Origin: Apostichopus japonicus
Lineage: Eukaryota; Echinodermata; Holothuroidea; Aspidochirotida; Stichopodidae
Direction of reading: 5' to 3'
DNA: 64,000 bases
NCBI RefSeq assembly: GCF_037975245.1
Contig: NC_092567.1
Location: forward strand, 14,834,876-14,898,875
Shown piece after piece: positions 30,860 to 59,740 of the stretch (the stretch's first letter is position 1; each line of letters starts with the position of its first letter). The notes under the pieces were generated by a model. The model did no database searches, was not told where the DNA came from, and saw only the letters and a list, made by a program, of their open reading frames with translations. The position numbers and the translations under genes are program-made.

Positions 30860-44265
<13,406 letters not shown>

Positions 44266-44369: not shown

Positions 44370-45960
44370 CCCCAAACGCGCTGTATACTTAAATGTGTAA
44401 TGATCAGAAAAATGATTTTTTTTTCTTCAAAATCGATTAAATTTAGTTATGGAGCCTACTAGGATGTCCGGTTAACACCACATTAAATTAGACAGGTTCA
44501 TCTTTCACGTGGTATACCTCTACTATCGGTAACAAAAATGATTTCTTGACCAAAAGTGACCTTAAAGTTTTAACCCCGATACGGACATCTCTAAACGCGC
44601 TGTATATACGTAGTGTGTAATGATCAGAAAAATGGTTAATTTTTATTTTTTTCAAAATCGATTAATTTTAGTTATGGAGCCTACTGGCATGTCCGGTTAG
44701 CACCACATTGAAGTAGAAAAGTTCCTCTTTTACGTGGTATACCTCTACTATCGGTAACAAAAATGATTTCTTGACCAAAAGTGACCTTAAAGTTTTAACC
44801 CCGATACGGACATCTCTAAACGCGCTGTATATACGTAGTGTGTAATGATCAGATAAATGGTTAATTTTTTTTTTTTCAAAATAGATTAACTTTAGTTATG
44901 GAGCCTACTGGCATGTCCGGTTAGCACCACATTGAAGTAGAAAGGTTCTTCTTTTACGTGGTATACCTCTACTATCGGTAACAAAAATGATTTCTTGACC
45001 AAAAGTGGCCTTAAAGTTTTAACCCCGATACGGACACCTCTAAACGCGCTGTATATCTAAGGTGTAATGATCCAAAAAATGATTCTTTTTCTTCAAAATC
45101 GATTAACTTTAGTTATGGAGCCTACTAGGATGTCCGGTTAGCACCACATTAAAGTAGAAAGGTACTTCTTTCGCGTGGTATGCCTCTACCATCGGTAACA
45201 AAAATGATTTCTTGACCAAAAATGGCCTTAAAGTTTTAACCCCGATCCGGACATCTCTAAACGCGCTGTATATACGTAATGTGTAATTTTGAAAAAAATA
45301 AAAATTAACCATTTATCTGATCATTACACACTACGTATATACAGCGCGTTTAGAGATGTCCGTATCGGGGTTAAAACTTTAAGGCAATTTTTGGTCAAGA
45401 AATCATTTTTGTTACCGATAGTAGAGGTATACCACGTGAAAGAGGAACCTTTCTACTTTAATGTGATGCTAACCGGACATGCCAGTAGACTCCATAACTA
45501 AAGTTAATCGATTTTGAAAAAAATAAAAATTAACCATTTTTATGATCATTACACATTACGTATATACAGCGCGTTTAGAGATGTCCGGATCGGGGTTAAA
45601 ACGTTAAGGCAATTTTTGGTCAAGAAATCATTTTTGTTACCGATAGTAGAGGTATATCACGTGAAAGATGAACCTGTCTACTTTAATGTGGTGCTAACCA
45701 GACATGCCAGTAGGCTCCATAACTAAAATTAATTGATTTTGAAGAAGAAAAGAAAAATATCAATATTTTAAAACGTTTAGGCTACTTTTGGTCAAACAAA
45801 TCGGCTTTGTTACCGATAGTAGGTATTACACGTGAAAGAAGAAATTGTTTTCTTTGATTTGATGCTAACCGGACCTCCTTACTAGGTCGATAACTCAAAT
45901 TAACCGATTTTGAAATAATAATAATACGTTTGGATCATAACACATTACCGCGCGTTTCGA
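44370..45960. repeat. Head-to-head (palindromic) array of about 225-bp units
   Basis: Units marked by 'aaacgcgctgtat' start at 44374, 44593, 44818, 45042 and 45259 on the plus strand. The orientation flips near 45287, and two good reverse copies follow (their 'cagcgcgttta' near 45342 and 45566), then degraded reverse copies to about 45960. Shared stretches include 'cccgatacggacatctcta', 'ctactatcggtaacaaaaat' and 'tagttatggagcctact'. A frame of about 60-70 codons is kept open in at least three copies (45109-45312 minus, 45289-45501 plus, 45514-45726 plus). The array begins about 100 bp upstream of the KIAA0930 start codon. Confidence 0.92.
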
Positions 45961-51205: not shown

Positions 51206-54200
51206 ATGGACTTTTACGACATATTGAAAGAAGCTGCCAGAAATAAGCTGAAAGCTCAAAAGGAGGTAATAGTAAAACGATTGCAAAACAGGTTCACGTT
51301 GAACCTAACGCCAACCAGACTAGTATAGTAACATACTACTAGTAGTTAGGCTAGCCTAGGCCTACACTAAGTAGACGATTAATGTTACTAAGTATGGGTA
51401 GTTTTCGGTAGGATCCAGTACCATTCCGCCATAGGGACAAAAACTCTTGAAGATTGTGTCCAAGGTCAGCTTAAAGGTCATTAGTATATTACAATATTCT
51501 TTACTACAAGTTTATATTTCCTAATGTTTTCTGGTTTTCAGAAATGTGTTGAATTTACTGCCATTTGAATAATTAATTGGACAAATCACAAATTACTTTC
51601 ATAAGTGACCATATGTGTTGATATTTTTCTCACATGGTCTGACCAGAAATACAACATTAAGATGTTCAGTGTAGTTTGCAGTCAGAAACATGGCATACTG
51701 TAGCTTATTCCGGGATTCACCGATTGAGGTGAAGATATCACCCAGAGAGAGCAAGGCTTTATTTGATTCTGTCAAATTGAAAATTTTGCTTCTCCTCTTT
51801 CTCTCTGAATAGCTTGAGGGAAACAAACGCTATAGTCTGGACTTCAAGCCCATGAAGAAGATCTCCAGGCCAAAGGTTAACAAAGCAGCAATCAATGCGC
51901 GACTGAAGAAGAAGGAGGAAGATCAGAGAAAGAAAGGTGAAAACAGCATAGGCATTCATTAAACAGCATCTAGGCATTCATTGAACAGCAAAGGCATTCA
52001 TTAAACAGCATAGGCATTCATTTAACATGTAACAGGAGGCAATGTTTTACATAATTTACAGAAATGGCATTTCTGTTTCAATGAAGCGGTCATCTAAACA
52101 TGTCAAACAATTTTTAGCGATACCATACACATTCCATATGTATGTAAACATAGCCAAAAGATGCAATTGCTAAATGGCCACCTTGGTTGTTGAAAGGAAT
52201 TATTAAAGGAAGGTCCTCATGCAATCATATATTGTAATGTGTATGTTTTTTTTTGTCATAAACTTTCTGTATCAAAATATGTACAGTGAAATAGAGATTT
52301 AAGAATAATAATTAGACCTGAATTTATCCAGCCTGATTATCATATTTGTGGCAAATTCTTGTATATCGTCTAAAGATATCATCACTGACTGTTCTTTAAC
52401 AGCTTTCACCTTTAAAGAAATCTAGCTGAAATGTGCGATATTCACAGTGTGAATCTACCGTTCCAGTTAAATTTGATGCATTGTTTATTATTTTCTTCTA
52501 CAAGGACACATTGCAGATTGTATCTATAATCAATACCTTAAGATAAGTTTAAAGACAGATTTCTCTCTCACTGAATCCTGTGTAAATCATTTTCAGTTCC
52601 CTTGTTTGTAATGAACTACTGAAGGGAGGGGGGGGGGGAAGGAGGGCCGGGGAGAATAATTGGGGGATCAAAGGCCAGCATTTCTTAACCTGTTCCTCTA
52701 CTCTCACCCCTTAGCAATTGACATATCATTCTTGCCGCCCCCCCCCCTCCTCTAGATGATTGCTCTGTGCATAATATTGATTCTTAAATGCCAGTATGTA
52801 GCTTCATACCACCTGGAATCCTGCCTTGCACCCCCAGGTGGTGTGTGCACCCCAGGTTAAAACACGATGACATAGACCCTGAACGATATTTAAAAAATAA
52901 AAAAAAATAAAAAATCAAGTGTTAAGTAATTGAATACTGTTTTACAATTTGAGGCTATACTGACAATTATTGCATTCTTTTGAGGCATCTGTTTATATTT
53001 TGAGAACTGTCAACAACTGTCAACGTCATGTTGTTGCTTTCTGGTCTGTATTTTGGTGTAAGATATCAATTCAGTGAATATGACAAACACCTTCATCTTT
53101 GTCTTTCAGCCGAGCAAGAAGAAAAGGAGAAACAGAGAGTATTAGCATTAAGAGCAGAACAAGAGGCGGCCAAAACTGCCAAGAGACGCCGAGATTCTTC
53201 ATCTCGCGGATCAAGTTCTACGAAGAGCGAGAAAGTACCAGGAAAGAAGAAGGTCGTTCATCAAGATGAAGAGAGAGAAGAGAGGCAGGAGAGGAAGAAA
53301 GTGAGTCCTTCGTTTCCCAAGGAGGAGAAACACAAAGATTTTAGGTTGAGTAACAACCACAAGAAAGAGGAAGGGAGAGTTAAATCAAAGTCTGTCAGTT
53401 CAAAGTTGTTGCCAGATGCGAAAGCAAAGCCATCATCGGCTCCAAGCTTCAAGGAACTTATGAACATAGCTGCTTCTAATGCTGGGACGTCCACATCCGG
53501 CTCAAATACTTTGATAAACGGTGAAAAAGAGAAATGTTCACCAAATGTTAAATTAAAAGCCAAAGCCGATTCCCATCGTGAAAACTTGAAGGCAAAAAGT
53601 GAGAAATCTTTCAAACGAGAACCATTGCCAGTTAAAAATGAAAGGTCCAGTCATAAACATCAAAATTCCGTAAGAGAACCGGTCCAGCAAGGGAAAAGTC
53701 ATACCGGTATGAAAGTGAAGAAAAAAACTTTTTTCACAAATACTAAAGATGCCAGTAAATCAGAGAGCAGAGGGCCTAAGTCTCGTGAATCAAGTCCAGA
53801 GAGCAGAGGGCCTAAATCTCGTGAATTAAGTCAAGAGAGCAGAGGGCCTAAATCTCGTGAATCAAGTCCAAAGAGCTCGTCAGGAAAGTTGCCAAATTCG
53901 TCAGCTAAGCAAAGCAATCTGAAGAGAGCTCCTGACAACTCGGGGGAAAAGCAGCGAGGCGAGAGAAAGGGAAAAGTGAATCGGGAGGAAATTGGGAAGT
54001 CGGTGCAACAACCAGTGAAAAGGAAAGGAGGGTGGTTAGACCCCCCTGTGACCGAACCGAAAAGAAAGCCAGAGGATTCTGCCGTGAGGAAAAATGGTGC
54101 TATTAAACATGTCATCAAGCCTAATGAGAAGAAAAGTTCTACGGCCGGTGAAATGGAACGCTCAAAAGAAAAGAAACGTGGTTGGCTGGATCCAGTACCG

Positions 54201-57200
54201 AGAAATCCCCCTGTCGGTAATGTTGCACAGTCTGAGAGCAGAGGGAAGAAATTAACTGTACCGACCAATGCAACTATGTCAAAGGTCAATAAAGCAACTC
54301 CTCCTGCCGCAGTCAAAGCAAAGAAACAAGGATGGCTAGATTCGGAAAGAAAACCAACAGGCTCTGTCCCTCCTCCCGCCAAAGGAAAGAAAGGTGGACG
54401 GCTTGATGCAGCGAAAACAAATTCCTCTTCTGGAAGAAGAGAGAAAGGTGGATGGCTTGACCCGCCTTCTGCCCCCAGGGAAAGGAGTGGGGGATGGTTG
54501 GGTTCGATACAAGAACCAACGGAGACTAGACCAGGAGGGTGGTTAGGAGGAGCAGTTAGGGAACCTACACTGGCAGCCAGACGTAAGTATACCTTGCTAG
54601 TTCTGATCCGTCTTTTGACCCCAGCATGCATATTTTTTATATTTGAAGTGAAGCGGCTAGTGGCCGTTTGGTTCTAAAACAAAAACACTTTTTACATGAC
54701 CAGATTGACGCAAAAAACTTGCACACAGTAAAAATGTCTGGATAATTAACCTTACCAGTATATATGTTAGTAACCATGATTCATTACTGCATTTTTAATT
54801 ACTTCTGCTGTTAGGCTTGACCTAGGTTCATTTGCTGTGTTAGGCTAGACCTAGGTACATCTACTGTGGTAGGCTAGACCTAAGTACATCTACTGTGATA
54901 GGCTAGACCTAGGTACACCTGATTTGATAGGTCTGTATTGGACTGTATTGTGTTTGTATACGTGTTAAATTGCATGGGTAAAGATGCAAACATAGCCAGC
55001 AGTTGTAATGATAAATTACAAGGTACAGTAAGTGACTTTTTGTTATAGCAGCCACTCTGTTTGGATGACTATGTCAGTTTTAGAATAGAGATATTAGTCT
55101 CTCACCTTGCGACATTTGATGCAATTCTTTTTTTGTTTTTATCAGGTGGTCGTCTGCTGAGCAGTGAAGACGAGGAGGAGGACAGTGACATGGATGATTT
55201 CATTGACGACACACCATACGAGGGTCCTGAAGGTGGGAACGTATCCAGCTACATCAAGGAAATCTTTGGCTATGATAGCTCAAAGTAAGACATTCATTTA
55301 TTATCTTATATTACTTAGTCAATAAGTAATTAGTGTAGATTGTATGAAAACTAGTGATCAGTCTAAAGGGAAAAAAAGGATGAATAACACATAAATAAGT
55401 GGCTATGCTAGCACAAAGTAAGAAATTCATTTATTATCTTATAGTACTTAGTCAAAAAGGTAATTTGTGTAGATTGCTTGAAAACTAGTGATCAGTCTTA
55501 AGAGAAAAAAAGAGGAATAATTAAATGTTAACACACACAGAAGTATACCTTGGTGGACAAAGTGGTCTGTACAGGAACCTTGAAGAAGAGTCCAAACTCT
55601 TAAAGATTGTATCCAAGATTGGCTTAAAGGTCATCAGTAATATTGCAATCTTCACTACAAGTACTTTTTGAGGTCAACTTTAAGGGTCATCAGTATATTA
55701 CAATCTTTACTACTAGTACTTTTTAATGTCAACTTAAAGGTCATTATTATATTACAATCCTTACTACAAGTAATTTTTAAGGTCAACTTAAAGGTCATCA
55801 TTATATTACAATCTTTACTACTAGTACTTTTTGATGGTCAACTTAAAGGTCATAAGCATATTACAATCTATACTGCAAGTACTTTTTAAGGTCAACTTAA
55901 AGGTCATTAGCATATTACAATCTTTACTAAAAGTTCTTAATAAGTACTCTTCTTGAGATTCTGACCCACCAAATAATTAACTGGGGCCTTGAGGTATGTT
56001 CAGGTTGGCAATTCTATGTGTCAGTGAGATAAAGTACTATGAAATTATTAGTAAATTGATCGTTGAAATCTAAGCACTGGCAATGATTAATGTACTACTA
56101 TATAGCATAGTAGAGGCACGACCCAGTCATAACATCAACCCTCATTGATCGGCCTACACCCCCCTTCCCTCACCCCCCCCACCAAATTTTTCATGACAAT
56201 GCCAAAACTCCCTGTATATGCTCATCACAGCCAAAGATGTTATAAAGAGGGCAATTTATCCGTTGCATGGACATTCTTGTTCCTGAATGACATTAATCTG
56301 ATCCTTTGACACAATTTTTTGGGTGAATAACACCACAAGTCTGACCTGTTTAACTGACCGCTCTTAACTGACCGTTGAGTTTAAGTAGATCTGGATAGAG
56401 TGGCCTAGCCATTTGATTTATGTGTTAAATACAAAATTATGTAAAGTTGTTGCAAGAAGTGGTTGATTGAATGAATGATTAACTTAAAAGGATTACATTA
56501 TTGAAATCTCGTAGTTGTAAAGAAGAATTTACTACATGATATGATTCCGCAGGTGGTGATTATATTGAATTGTTTATTAATGATCCTTTAAGGCATAATG
56601 ATCATTATAAAATGTTTGATGTCAGGGGGGTAGGAGCTGGGGGGGGCACTGGGGGCAAGTGCCCCTCCACTTTTTTCCAAATGAGCAAATTTGCCCTACT
56701 GGCAAATACCATGTGCCCCTTTGATGAAGAACTGTCTTTTGGATATCTTATTTGAAAAGCCGTTGTTAATTTTAATATTTTATTGTAATTATTCACGAGC
56801 ACCATAATAGTTTTGATAGCATACTAACACATCATATATACAGTATATTTAAGTGATATGGCCGTTGTGTATCGGTTTATAGCATAACGAGTGGTGGTTG
56901 TGCACTGACAGTGTGTCCCTCTGATGTTGTGCCCCCCCCCCACTTTTTGGAAGCTTCCTAGCCCCCTGTTTGACATGGAAATTGGCATTACGAAAGGTTG
57001 CACCCAAATTAAAACATATGCCACTGAACTAGATTGAAATATTGGTGACTTGGCAAGTTAAAGTTTGGTCAAATCTGTATCATGTCATCACAAAACATTT
57101 CCATCATCACATACAAGGCCCTGGTAGCAGTTCATGTTACCAGCTCCGTCTAACCTTAAACCACTTCTGATATTCCAGCTTTTACCTTTACCTCACCTCA

Positions 57201-59740
57201 ACTGCCGTTGTATAATTTACGACTATATGTGTCTTCCTGTTTTCCCTTCCAGGTACAAGTATGAGAGCGACTATGCACTGAAGAGTATGGAAGCCAGCTA
57301 CTCTCAGATATTAAAAGAGGAAGCTCGAAGGTAAGAGATGGCAGCAGTAGCATAATATCATTTAAATCTCTGACCTTTGCAAAGTGTTAGGTAAAAAATT
57401 GAAAATTACAGAAATGTCAAAAAAAGAAGAAAATGGATGTATTTTGCTATTGAGAATCTTGTTAATTTGACAAGATTTGCACATTAAAATTTATTTTCTT
57501 CTTATCATAGTTTTCATCACTAGTTGAATCAATGTGATACTTGGTAGATAGATGCCCCTTGATGGTTCTCGTCTCATGAGTATTAATGAGTGGGCGAGGC
57601 TTAACGTAAACTTTGGTACTGGTATGGTGATGTTGGTTCATAAGTCAGCACATTTTCATGATATCTCCAATTATATATATTTATGTCATATTCATCAAAT
57701 TGCAAGAAATGGTTTTTAAACACAAGACAAGAACCAAATGCTCCATTGTTTTCAACCTTGGCATATAAGGTTTGTCACTCTACATTCATACAATGAACCG
57801 TATTGTTTTTGTTTGCATATCATTAATATTAATCAGTGAACATAAAACTCGTAATCAGATATCTCTGAAATATTATGTCTTACTAGCTTTATACATGTAC
57901 TTGGATAATACAATGTATATATATAGATACTAGTGTTTACACGGGTCCAAAAATCGGGAACCGGGTACCTGAGGGCCGTTACCCGTCGGGTATCCGGGTA
58001 CCCGGAAAAAATTTGTTTACCCTCGTGTATCACGATTTTCAAGAAATTACATATTGGATGCTGTAATAAATGCATTATATTCTCTACTGACAATATTTTC
58101 ATGTTCAAATACGTAGGTGTAAGATAAGATATAAAACCTCCCTCAGTAGTTTTTATTTGCTTTTGTTTCTTTCATTAACTTGTTAATAAATTATTTAATT
58201 ATAATTAGCATTACTACAAACATCGCACTGCCGCCGCTGCTTATGCTAGCTCGTGCACGTCTATTGGATCAAACCATATAAATATCCAATTTAGCTCTTA
58301 AACAGTTTTTAATACTACTACTATCTATTATGCAGGCCCAGGGTTCGCATTAGCCGCGAGATTGCGCGATTCGCGCAATTTGATCACATTTGGAATAAAC
58401 GATTAGTAAAAAGCCACTTGCGATTACTATTTTTTGGTTATCCCGTCTATAATCCATAAACATCGCGTAAAATTCCTTGTCAGCCTTTCCTTCTTTGCAA
58501 TAAACGAATGAATAAATAATAATTTCTTCCACATGGTAGCCTAACACCACAATAAGTCAATGAGAAATCAAGCTAAGCCTAACCATCTCTTTATTTGCTG
58601 GAGTTGTGACGCAGTTATAAGACATCCATGGAATACTTTCGTGATTGCTGTTACGTTCGACCACATGGTTGACTAACACCACACTAAGTCAATGGGGGTA
58701 GTCTAGCCTAGCCATCTGTTTATTAGCTGAAATTGTGACGCAGTTATAAGATATCTATGGAAAGCTTTCGTTATTGCTGTTATCTTCGAACACATGGTAG
58801 CCTAACAACACACTAAGTCAATGGGAAATCAGCCTAACCATCGGTTTGCAATTTTTTTTTTTAAACAATCAAACTTTACGTATGATTCGGGTAATAAATT
58901 AGGAACCGGTTAGTATCGCGTAGAGCGGGCCCCTTCGTTATTGCTGTTATCTTCGACCACATTGTAGCCTAACACTACACTAAGACAATGGGAAATCTGC
59001 CTAACCGTCGGTTGCCAATTTTTTTTTTTTTTTTAAATCACACTTTGCTTAGGATTCGGGTAATAAATTATTAACCGGGTAGTATCACGTCGGGCGGTTA
59101 CCCGGGTACCCGGATAACCCGTGTAAACACTAATAGATACATGCTTATGTTATGAGAATCATAAAATTTGACTTCATTAATATTTGTGCATGTATCTGTT
59201 TTTAAAACTACATCACTAAATAGACTCTTGTCAACATGATTAAGTTCATCCCTGGTACCTTCCTTTATATGTTGCCGCATCAGTCAATAGATAATCCTCT
59301 TCATTTTGGCATGCACAAAGTTCATCAACATTAACATGTATGGCTTATCACACTTATGAATATGTTTAGACACTAAACGTTTTTTGGTTTCTGGTTACTG
59401 AATGTCTATGGAGATATATCCAGGCATGAGCTTTTTCCGCGAATTCGCAGAATATCCGTGATTTCTTCTGCTTGGGGAAAAAAATCATCCTAACACACTG
59501 TAGCTTACGCAAACTGGAGCCTATACCGCAATTTTTGCAAAATTCTGTGATTTTTTTTTTACCCCAGGCACATCCCTGTATAACAAATAGCTTGCCGTGT
59601 CAAGGGAAATTTAATTTTCTACATTTATATCTTCTTCTTTCGCTAGTGCTCGTATCGCCAGACAAGAAGATGCCGAGGAATGGAGGAAAGAGAAGGAACT
59701 GGAAAAGAAGAAACTTGCAGCTAAAGCAAAAAGGAAATAA
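51206..59740 (+). CDS. SPTY2D1: SPT2 / SPTY2D1 homologue, histone H3-H4 chaperone, 6 exons
   Basis: Exons: 51206-51265, 51813-51936, 53110-54582, 55146-55284, 57253-57330 and 59647-59740. All borders are GT/AG and phases agree, giving 655 residues; the human protein is 685. The start MDFYDILKEA matches the family start MDF(R/Y)(E/D)IL. Residues 21-61 hold the basic KRYSLDFKP and helical KKKEEDQRKK segments. Residues 62-552 (exon 3) are disordered, Lys/Ser-rich and repetitive. Residues 553-655 form the SPT2 C-terminal domain: the acidic run SEDEEEDSDMDDFIDD (559-574), SSYIKEIFGYD, then YKYESDYALKSMEASYSQILKEEARSARIARQEDAEEW and a basic tail. In SPT2 this domain binds the H3-H4 tetramer, and the protein works in nuclear chromatin during transcription. 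The histone-binding part is intact, so the gene should be functional. Confidence 0.95.
53762..53873 (+). repeat. 36-bp in-frame triplicate in SPT2 exon 3
   Basis: Three adjacent copies encode the 12-residue unit ESRGPKSRESSP, the second with ELSQ. Copies differ by only a few bases, which indicates recent expansion by slippage or unequal exchange. The unit is Ser/Arg/Lys-rich. Confidence 0.9.
54027..54551 (+). repeat. Seven GWLD/GWLG motifs in SPT2 exon 3
   Basis: Motifs at codons starting 54027 (GGWLD, residue 368), 54177 (RGWLD, 418), 54327 (QGWLD, 468), 54393 (GGRLD, 490), 54447 (GGWLD, 508), 54489 (GGWLG, 522) and 54534 (GGWLG, 537). Most follow a K/R patch and precede Pro-rich sequence. 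The first three are exactly 50 residues apart, then spacing tightens to 14-22. The linkers differ, so only the short motif is kept, unlike a plain minisatellite. Confidence 0.9.
54811..54930. repeat. 30-bp tandem repeat, four copies
   Basis: Units of the form 'taggctagacctaggtacat' plus 'ctactgtgg' in intron 3 of the SPT2 homologue. They contain the palindrome CCTAGG. Confidence 0.9.
55268..55535 (+). repeat. 133-bp tandem duplication spanning the exon 4 splice donor
   Basis: Copy 1 starts at 'ggctatgata' (55268, coding) and runs through the real donor at 55285 into the intron. Copy 2 starts at 'ggctatgcta' (55401) and carries its own GTAAG, making a second potential 5' splice site. Copy identity is high ('attcatttattatcttata', 'actagtgatcagtct'). 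Confidence 0.85.
55590..55940. repeat. 55-bp tandem repeat, six copies
   Basis: Units with 'ttaaaggtcat', 'atattacaatctttacta' and 'agtactttttaaggtcaa' recur at 55624, 55679, 55734, 55789, 55843 and 55898. A single related unit occurs in SPT2 intron 1 near 51460-51525. Confidence 0.92.
56600..56965. repeat. Probable degenerate transposon fragment with G/C-rich ends
   Basis: A G-run block ('gggggtaggagctggggg', 'cactgggggcaagtgcccc') near 56620-56660 and C-run sequence near 56930-56965 ('gtgcccccccccc') bracket AT-rich DNA. I find no clear terminal repeat or target duplication. Confidence 0.3.
57923..59140. mobile_element. hAT-like inverted-repeat DNA transposon, non-autonomous
   Basis: The element spans 57931-59132 (1202 bp). 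Ends are TAGTGTTTACACGGGT on the left and, reversed on the right, TAGTGTTTACACGGGT again. A perfect 8-bp target duplication, ATAGATAC, flanks it (57923-57930, 59133-59140). Subterminal blocks are rich in CCCGGGTACCCGG-type palindromes at both ends. The interior contains four diverged copies of a unit of roughly 130 bp beginning 'cacatggtagcctaacac' (near 58530, 58658, 58789 and 58958). No transposase is present. It lies in intron 5 of the SPT2 homologue. Confidence 0.9.

Follow-up and report, generated by a model that had tools for sequence, protein, structure and literature searches.

A repeated Gly-Trp-Leu motif in the middle exon of a sea cucumber SPT2, a candidate docking array beside the histone-binding domain

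The Trp motif array of SPT2 exon 3

We analyzed a 64,000-nt stretch of the Apostichopus japonicus genome (NC_092567.1, positions 14,834,876 to 14,898,875 of the forward strand; hereafter the window), which carries a gene for the H3-H4 chaperone SPT2 (SPTY2D1). Exon 3 of this gene encodes an array of seven G-[W/R]-L-[D/G] motifs, comprising six copies of G-W-L-[D/G] and one of G-R-L-D. The array is not random, its copies are constrained relative to each other at the level of protein, and no structure is predicted for it. We put at about even the chances that residues 363-552 serve as a multivalent short-linear-motif docking array beside the H3-H4-binding end of the protein. An earlier, sequence-only reading of this DNA had claimed seven intact motifs in the middle of SPT2. 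Their coordinates, frame and location in SPT2 exon 3 (53110-54582) were confirmed, as was the exact spacing of 50 residues (150 nt) between the first three copies; the count was not, since only six copies carry Trp, and copy 4 is GRLD, with codon CGG.

All copies lie on the plus strand. Motifs 1, 2 and 3 are GWLD, encoded at 54030..54041 (GGG TGG TTA GAC), 54180..54191 (GGT TGG CTG GAT) and 54330..54341 (GGA TGG CTA GAT), and are followed by the degenerate, Trp-less motif 4 (GRLD, GGA CGG CTT GAT) at 54396..54407. Motif 5 at 54450..54461 is again GWLD (GGA TGG CTT GAC), while motifs 6 (54492..54503; GGA TGG TTG GGT) and 7 (54537..54548; GGG TGG TTA GGA) are GWLG. The seven begin at residues 369, 419, 469, 491, 509, 523 and 538, respectively, leaving successive gaps of 50, 50, 22, 18, 14 and 15 residues. 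Asp thus ends five of the seven copies, and Gly ends copies 6 and 7. Every one of the six Trp residues of exon 3 sits in a motif; the single further Trp of the protein, at residue 637, belongs to the C-terminal domain. The 190 residues of the array (363-552) include no Phe or Tyr, six Trp and one His, and the pair WL accounts for six of its seven hydrophobic runs. Lys and Arg make up 22% of the array, and net charge is positive in 11 of the 13 twenty-residue blocks spanning residues 301-560. Outside the six places named above, GWL[DG] is not encoded in any of the six frames of the whole window.

The SPT2 gene consists of six predicted exons with AG/GT borders and a single reading frame of 655 amino acids; this exon model is our own prediction from the DNA letters, based on splice borders and frame. 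All exons are on the plus strand. Exon 1 (51206..51265; residues 1-20) has an ATG start, a GT donor and an open frame, which continues through exon 2 (51813..51936; AG/GT borders). Exon 3 (53110..54582; AG/GT borders) encodes residues 62-552 and contains the array. Exon 4 (55146..55284; AG/GT borders) encodes an acidic stretch and the start of the histone-binding domain, exon 5 (57253..57330; AG/GT borders) continues that domain and includes Met611 and Glu621-622, and exon 6 (59647..59740) has an AG acceptor and ends the frame at a stop codon. Two introns carry repeated DNA. Intron 3 has about four copies of a 29-bp tandem repeat at 54809-54931, and intron 5 has a 1202-bp insert at 57931-59132 with 16-bp perfect terminal inverted repeats (TAGTGTTTACACGGGT), flanked on both sides by ATAGATAC as an 8-bp target-site duplication. 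The insert looks like a non-autonomous hAT-type transposon.

The Pfam family SPT2 (PF08243) matched residues 558-649 (E 8.1e-22; 78.3 bits against a cut-off of 24), and SPT2_N (PF22878) matched residues 1-86 (E 9e-11; 42.9 bits against a cut-off of 26). The C-terminus also aligned with the human SPT2 chains of structures 5bs7 (E 1.8e-18) and 5bsa (E 3.6e-18), such that Met611 and Glu621-622 aligned, with equal spacing, with human Met641, Glu651 and Glu652. Judged by both Pfam SPT2 domains and the match to the human domain, the predicted protein is SPT2 with a typical histone-binding domain. It has in common with known SPT2/SPTY2D1 chaperones the N- and C-terminal domains and the histone-contacting Met and Glu-Glu, and is set apart from them by the six-Trp GWL[DG] array in its middle exon. 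The middle part of vertebrate SPT2 carries a different, Gly-rich repeat and is not known to contain GWLD. Among the papers listed by literature searches, which left out most subscription journals, we found no description of a Trp array in SPT2, as judged from titles and the openings of abstracts, and none on a GWLD tryptophan motif. Searched with the histone-binding domain, viral contigs and prokaryote genome contigs yielded no relative, and neither did viral contigs searched with the full-length protein. Met641, Glu651 and Glu652 of human SPT2 are reported to hold H3-H4 (PMC7615752). The same 2024 study describes three conserved regions in metazoan SPT2, namely N-terminal, central and histone-binding, none of which is presented as a Trp array (PMC7615752).

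Chance, duplication and constraint between copies

Residues of exon 3 were shuffled 200,000 times, using the first 490 of its 491 residues with every motif included. None of the shuffles contained at least two GWL[DG] motifs and 416 contained one, compared to the six observed. The composition-based chance of finding G before and L after all six Trp residues was ~2e-15. Independent chance as the source of the array is excluded. Both nulls test independent chance and not duplication, which was instead addressed by comparing codons.

Leu in copies 1-7 is encoded by TTA, CTG, CTA, CTT, CTT, TTG and TTA, respectively, or five kinds of codon; Gly is encoded by GGG, GGT and GGA, and the Asp codons likewise vary. 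Given this variety, with five codons for Leu and three for Gly, a DNA-level motif, such as a splicing enhancer or microsatellite, was judged unlikely. Across the 21 pairs of copies, the proportion of synonymous differences (pS) in the motif core was 0.85, which is near saturation, that of nonsynonymous differences (pN) was 0.125, and their ratio was 0.15; this comparison is between copies of one sequence, and is weaker than a ratio of nonsynonymous to synonymous rates (dN/dS) taken between species. For copies 1, 2, 3 and 5 the core ratio was 0.016. Four stretches of flank and linker gave ratios of 0.79-0.94 with all seven copies and 0.97-1.29 with copies 1, 2, 3 and 5, and for 3,000 random sets of four codons drawn from exon 3 the median ratio was 0.94, with the lowest 1% lying at or below 0.67. 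Because the Leu, Gly and Asp codons vary and core pS is near saturation, the majority of copies do not stem from recent duplication of DNA. Either the copies are old and were preserved as protein, or the motif was gained repeatedly; as read from these codons, both possibilities point to selection on the peptide.

The linkers have diverged, as had been claimed. Outside the motif, the first three 150-nt units matched each other at 34, 32 and 34 of 120 bases, or 27-28%, compared to a null mean of 33.3 (sd 5.1). This is chance level, and a 150-bp repeat unit was rejected. The exact 50-residue spacing of these copies bears no trace of a recognizable 150-bp repeat and may be a coincidence. Exon 3 does contain a 36-bp tandem repeat at 53761..53876 on the plus strand (3.2 copies, 92% matches, TRF score 204), the coded units of which are ESRGPKSRESSP-like. 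It is distinct from the GWLD array; a partial echo of the repeat lies between motifs 2 and 3, at 54234-54252.

Flanking residues were less uniform than the core. Lys or Arg occupied position -3 in six of seven copies (P 0.001) and positions -2 and -5 in five of seven each (P 0.01 each), compared to an exon-3 background of 24%, these P values being uncorrected across the 18 positions examined. Gly was present at -1 in five of seven copies, and at positions +4 to +9 no residue exceeded three of seven. A fuller version of the motif is approximately [K/R]-x-[K/R]-K-x-G-W-L-[D/G], with the Lys at -2 absent from copies 6 and 7 and the basic residue at -5 absent from copy 7. A single-sequence AlphaFold model of exon 3 had a mean predicted local distance difference test score (pLDDT) of 45.2, with block means of 36-44 across the array. 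Helices were predicted at residues 2-25, 114-125 and 149-167 of the exon and none in the array. Single-sequence models being poor, this result is consistent with disorder and nothing more.

Candidate functions of the array

If the array is a docking region, its Trp-Leu pairs would fit a hydrophobic pocket of a partner, and the Gly ahead of each pair would let the chain turn. The residue after the pair is mostly Asp, and the basic patch upstream would meet an acidic rim of the partner, or nucleic acid. Spread along a flexible basic chain, the six Trp copies would either bind a single partner firmly by adding up several weak contacts or bring a number of partner molecules together, and would do so beside the H3-H4-binding C-terminal domain, in what may be a transcription-linked role on chromatin. 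The sequence-only reading had likewise proposed that retained Trp motifs are docking sites. That proposal gains partial support from the constraint between copies, the structureless single-sequence fold and the lack of any further Phe, Tyr or Trp in the array.

Several observations weigh against a docking array. It is known from one sequence of one species, and constraint upon it is not absolute, with Trp missing from copy 4 and Asp from copies 6-7. The core sites compared were picked for agreement of their residues, so that part of the low pN follows from this choice; the part of the codon evidence that is independent of it is the number of copies together with their synonymous spread. Copies 1 and 7 have a 14-nt run in common and a 22-nt stretch is 91% identical between copies 4 and 5, and from this shared DNA some of the duplication may be recent. 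Finally, the array has no PDB match and, in a Pfam that includes an Ago_hook model, no family at E up to 1; the single PDB match of its profile, at E 7.9, was a designed protein.

The same shared strings, the Trp-less copy 4 and the presence of the 36-bp tandem repeat, which precedes the array by ~150 bp in exon 3, would fit a functionless remnant of repeat expansion in a disordered exon that drifts fast. We regard such a remnant as unlikely: the linkers of the first three copies have fallen to random identity and synonymous sites of the core approach saturation, yet the residues of the core have been kept. A possible but doubtful alternative is that the Trp-Leu pairs act as stickers in a basic spacer, supporting weak self-association or contact with DNA or RNA through Trp stacking and Lys/Arg, with no single protein reader. 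The charge of the array and its lack of other Phe, Tyr or Trp are in keeping with stickers, and SPT2 from yeast, worm and human binds branched DNA (PMC2585797, PMC7615752). However, with L after and G before in all seven copies and D in five, the motif is narrower than a sticker requires, and an acidic Asp beside the Trp would be unfavorable to nucleic acid.

Two classes of described Trp motif resemble the array by eye. Ligand motifs of the U2AF type, bound by UHM domains, are Arg-Trp-Asp motifs, of which SF3B1 has at least five (PMC6633205, PMC7648758). Like the array, the motifs of SF3B1 and SF1 comprise several Trp with upstream basic residues on a disordered chain, and the array further recalls KSRWDE in having an acid after the Trp (PMC7648758, PMC6633205). 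In contrast to these motifs, the array has Gly rather than Arg before Trp, and Leu rather than Asp/Asn after it. Since known U2AF ligands use the Arg just before Trp for a salt bridge (PMC6633205) and Gly stands there in all seven copies, a U2AF ligand is scarcely credible; the pattern [KR]W[DEN] matched none of the seven, and the class was rejected on its consensus of Arg/Lys before Trp and an acid or Asn after. The MTR4 arch motif has the consensus x-aromatic-x-x-D-(x)1/2-G/P, exemplified by the W-AIM of NVL, GWFIDKTP (PMC6662825). NVL and the array share Gly, Trp, an aliphatic residue and Asp, and Pro directly follows three of the seven array copies; in the array, however, Asp lies two residues after Trp and not three, and no copy (0/7) fit the published consensus, leading us to reject this class as well. 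The consensus did match twice elsewhere in the protein, at RYSLDFKP (51828-51851, residues 26-33) and DFIDDTP (55196-55216, residues 570-576), both probably by chance.

A special case of the docking reading is that the GW motifs sit in the Trp pockets of Argonaute or PIWI proteins, thereby tying SPT2 to small-RNA-guided chromatin silencing. Argonaute hooks have been proposed or shown in plant SPT5L, SPT6L and NRPE1, of which SPT6L is a histone chaperone; they are described as Trp repeats in mostly GW/WG contexts on disordered chains, two or three Trp being said to suffice for one Argonaute, and animal SPT6 is said to be without a hook (PMC10991848). The array has six GW copies in the disordered chain of a histone chaperone, with its last four Trp residues spaced by 40, 14 and 15 residues. 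Its likeness to the hook platforms of SPT6L, SPT5L/KTF1, NRPE1 and GW182 extends to repeated GW, a disordered chain and a setting in elongation or silencing proteins (PMC10991848, PMC2904775), and worm SPT-2 is required for inherited nuclear RNAi (PMC7615752). In contrast to those platforms, Leu after Trp is invariant here and Asp mostly comes next, and the flanks are basic, whereas hook-like flanks are rich in A, S, E, N and D (PMC2904775). The absence of a Pfam match at E up to 1 also argues against a hook, as does the genetic nature of the worm RNAi link, which depends on histone binding (PMC7615752). Hooks have been defined by at least three motifs scoring at least 6 in Wsearch (PMC10991848); by plain count, the array has six GW, in a stretch with no predicted structure. 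We consider an Argonaute hook very unlikely. The array is similar in kind to Argonaute hooks, MTR4 arch motifs and U2AF ligand motifs; it departs from the consensus of the latter two and agrees with hooks in part. Independently of plants, this animal SPT2 might have gained a Trp platform that directly loads an Argonaute/PIWI silencing factor, or another protein of the transcription machinery with a Trp-Leu pocket, onto an H3-H4 chaperone, an idea we hold to be distinctly improbable. If true, such a platform would link histone recycling with signals from small RNAs or RNA processing.

Other features of the window and meaning for SPT2

Elsewhere in the window, positions 44416-45754 contain four direct 225-bp copies followed by two in the opposite orientation, which together make an inverted repeat whose 464-nt arms are 94% complementary; if transcribed, it could give a long hairpin RNA. 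A stop-free frame of 618 codons at 31208-33061 is composed of satellite-like repeats, including two 100% identical copies of one block (31366-31665 and 31993-32292) and, at 32592-32969, a 42-bp array. Because other frames are open there too, this frame is probably not a gene. On the minus strand, a frame at 35149-35523 matched Pfam DUF2045 (PF09741; E 2.3e-7) and is probably an exon of a neighboring gene on the opposite strand.

The place of SPT2 in the histone chaperone network has been described as still unclear (PMC7615752). Transcriptional upregulation in SPT2-null worms is stronger than in histone-binding mutants, in which the authors see a hint of histone-independent functions (PMC7615752), and the association of human SPT2 with ASF1 is histone-dependent (PMC10114496). 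A docking-like motif that recurs close to the histone-binding end offers a concrete handle on this question, with one peptide serving as bait. If the motif names a reader, it would show how SPT2 comes to transcribed or silenced chromatin, and how multivalent docking sites arise in disordered exons.

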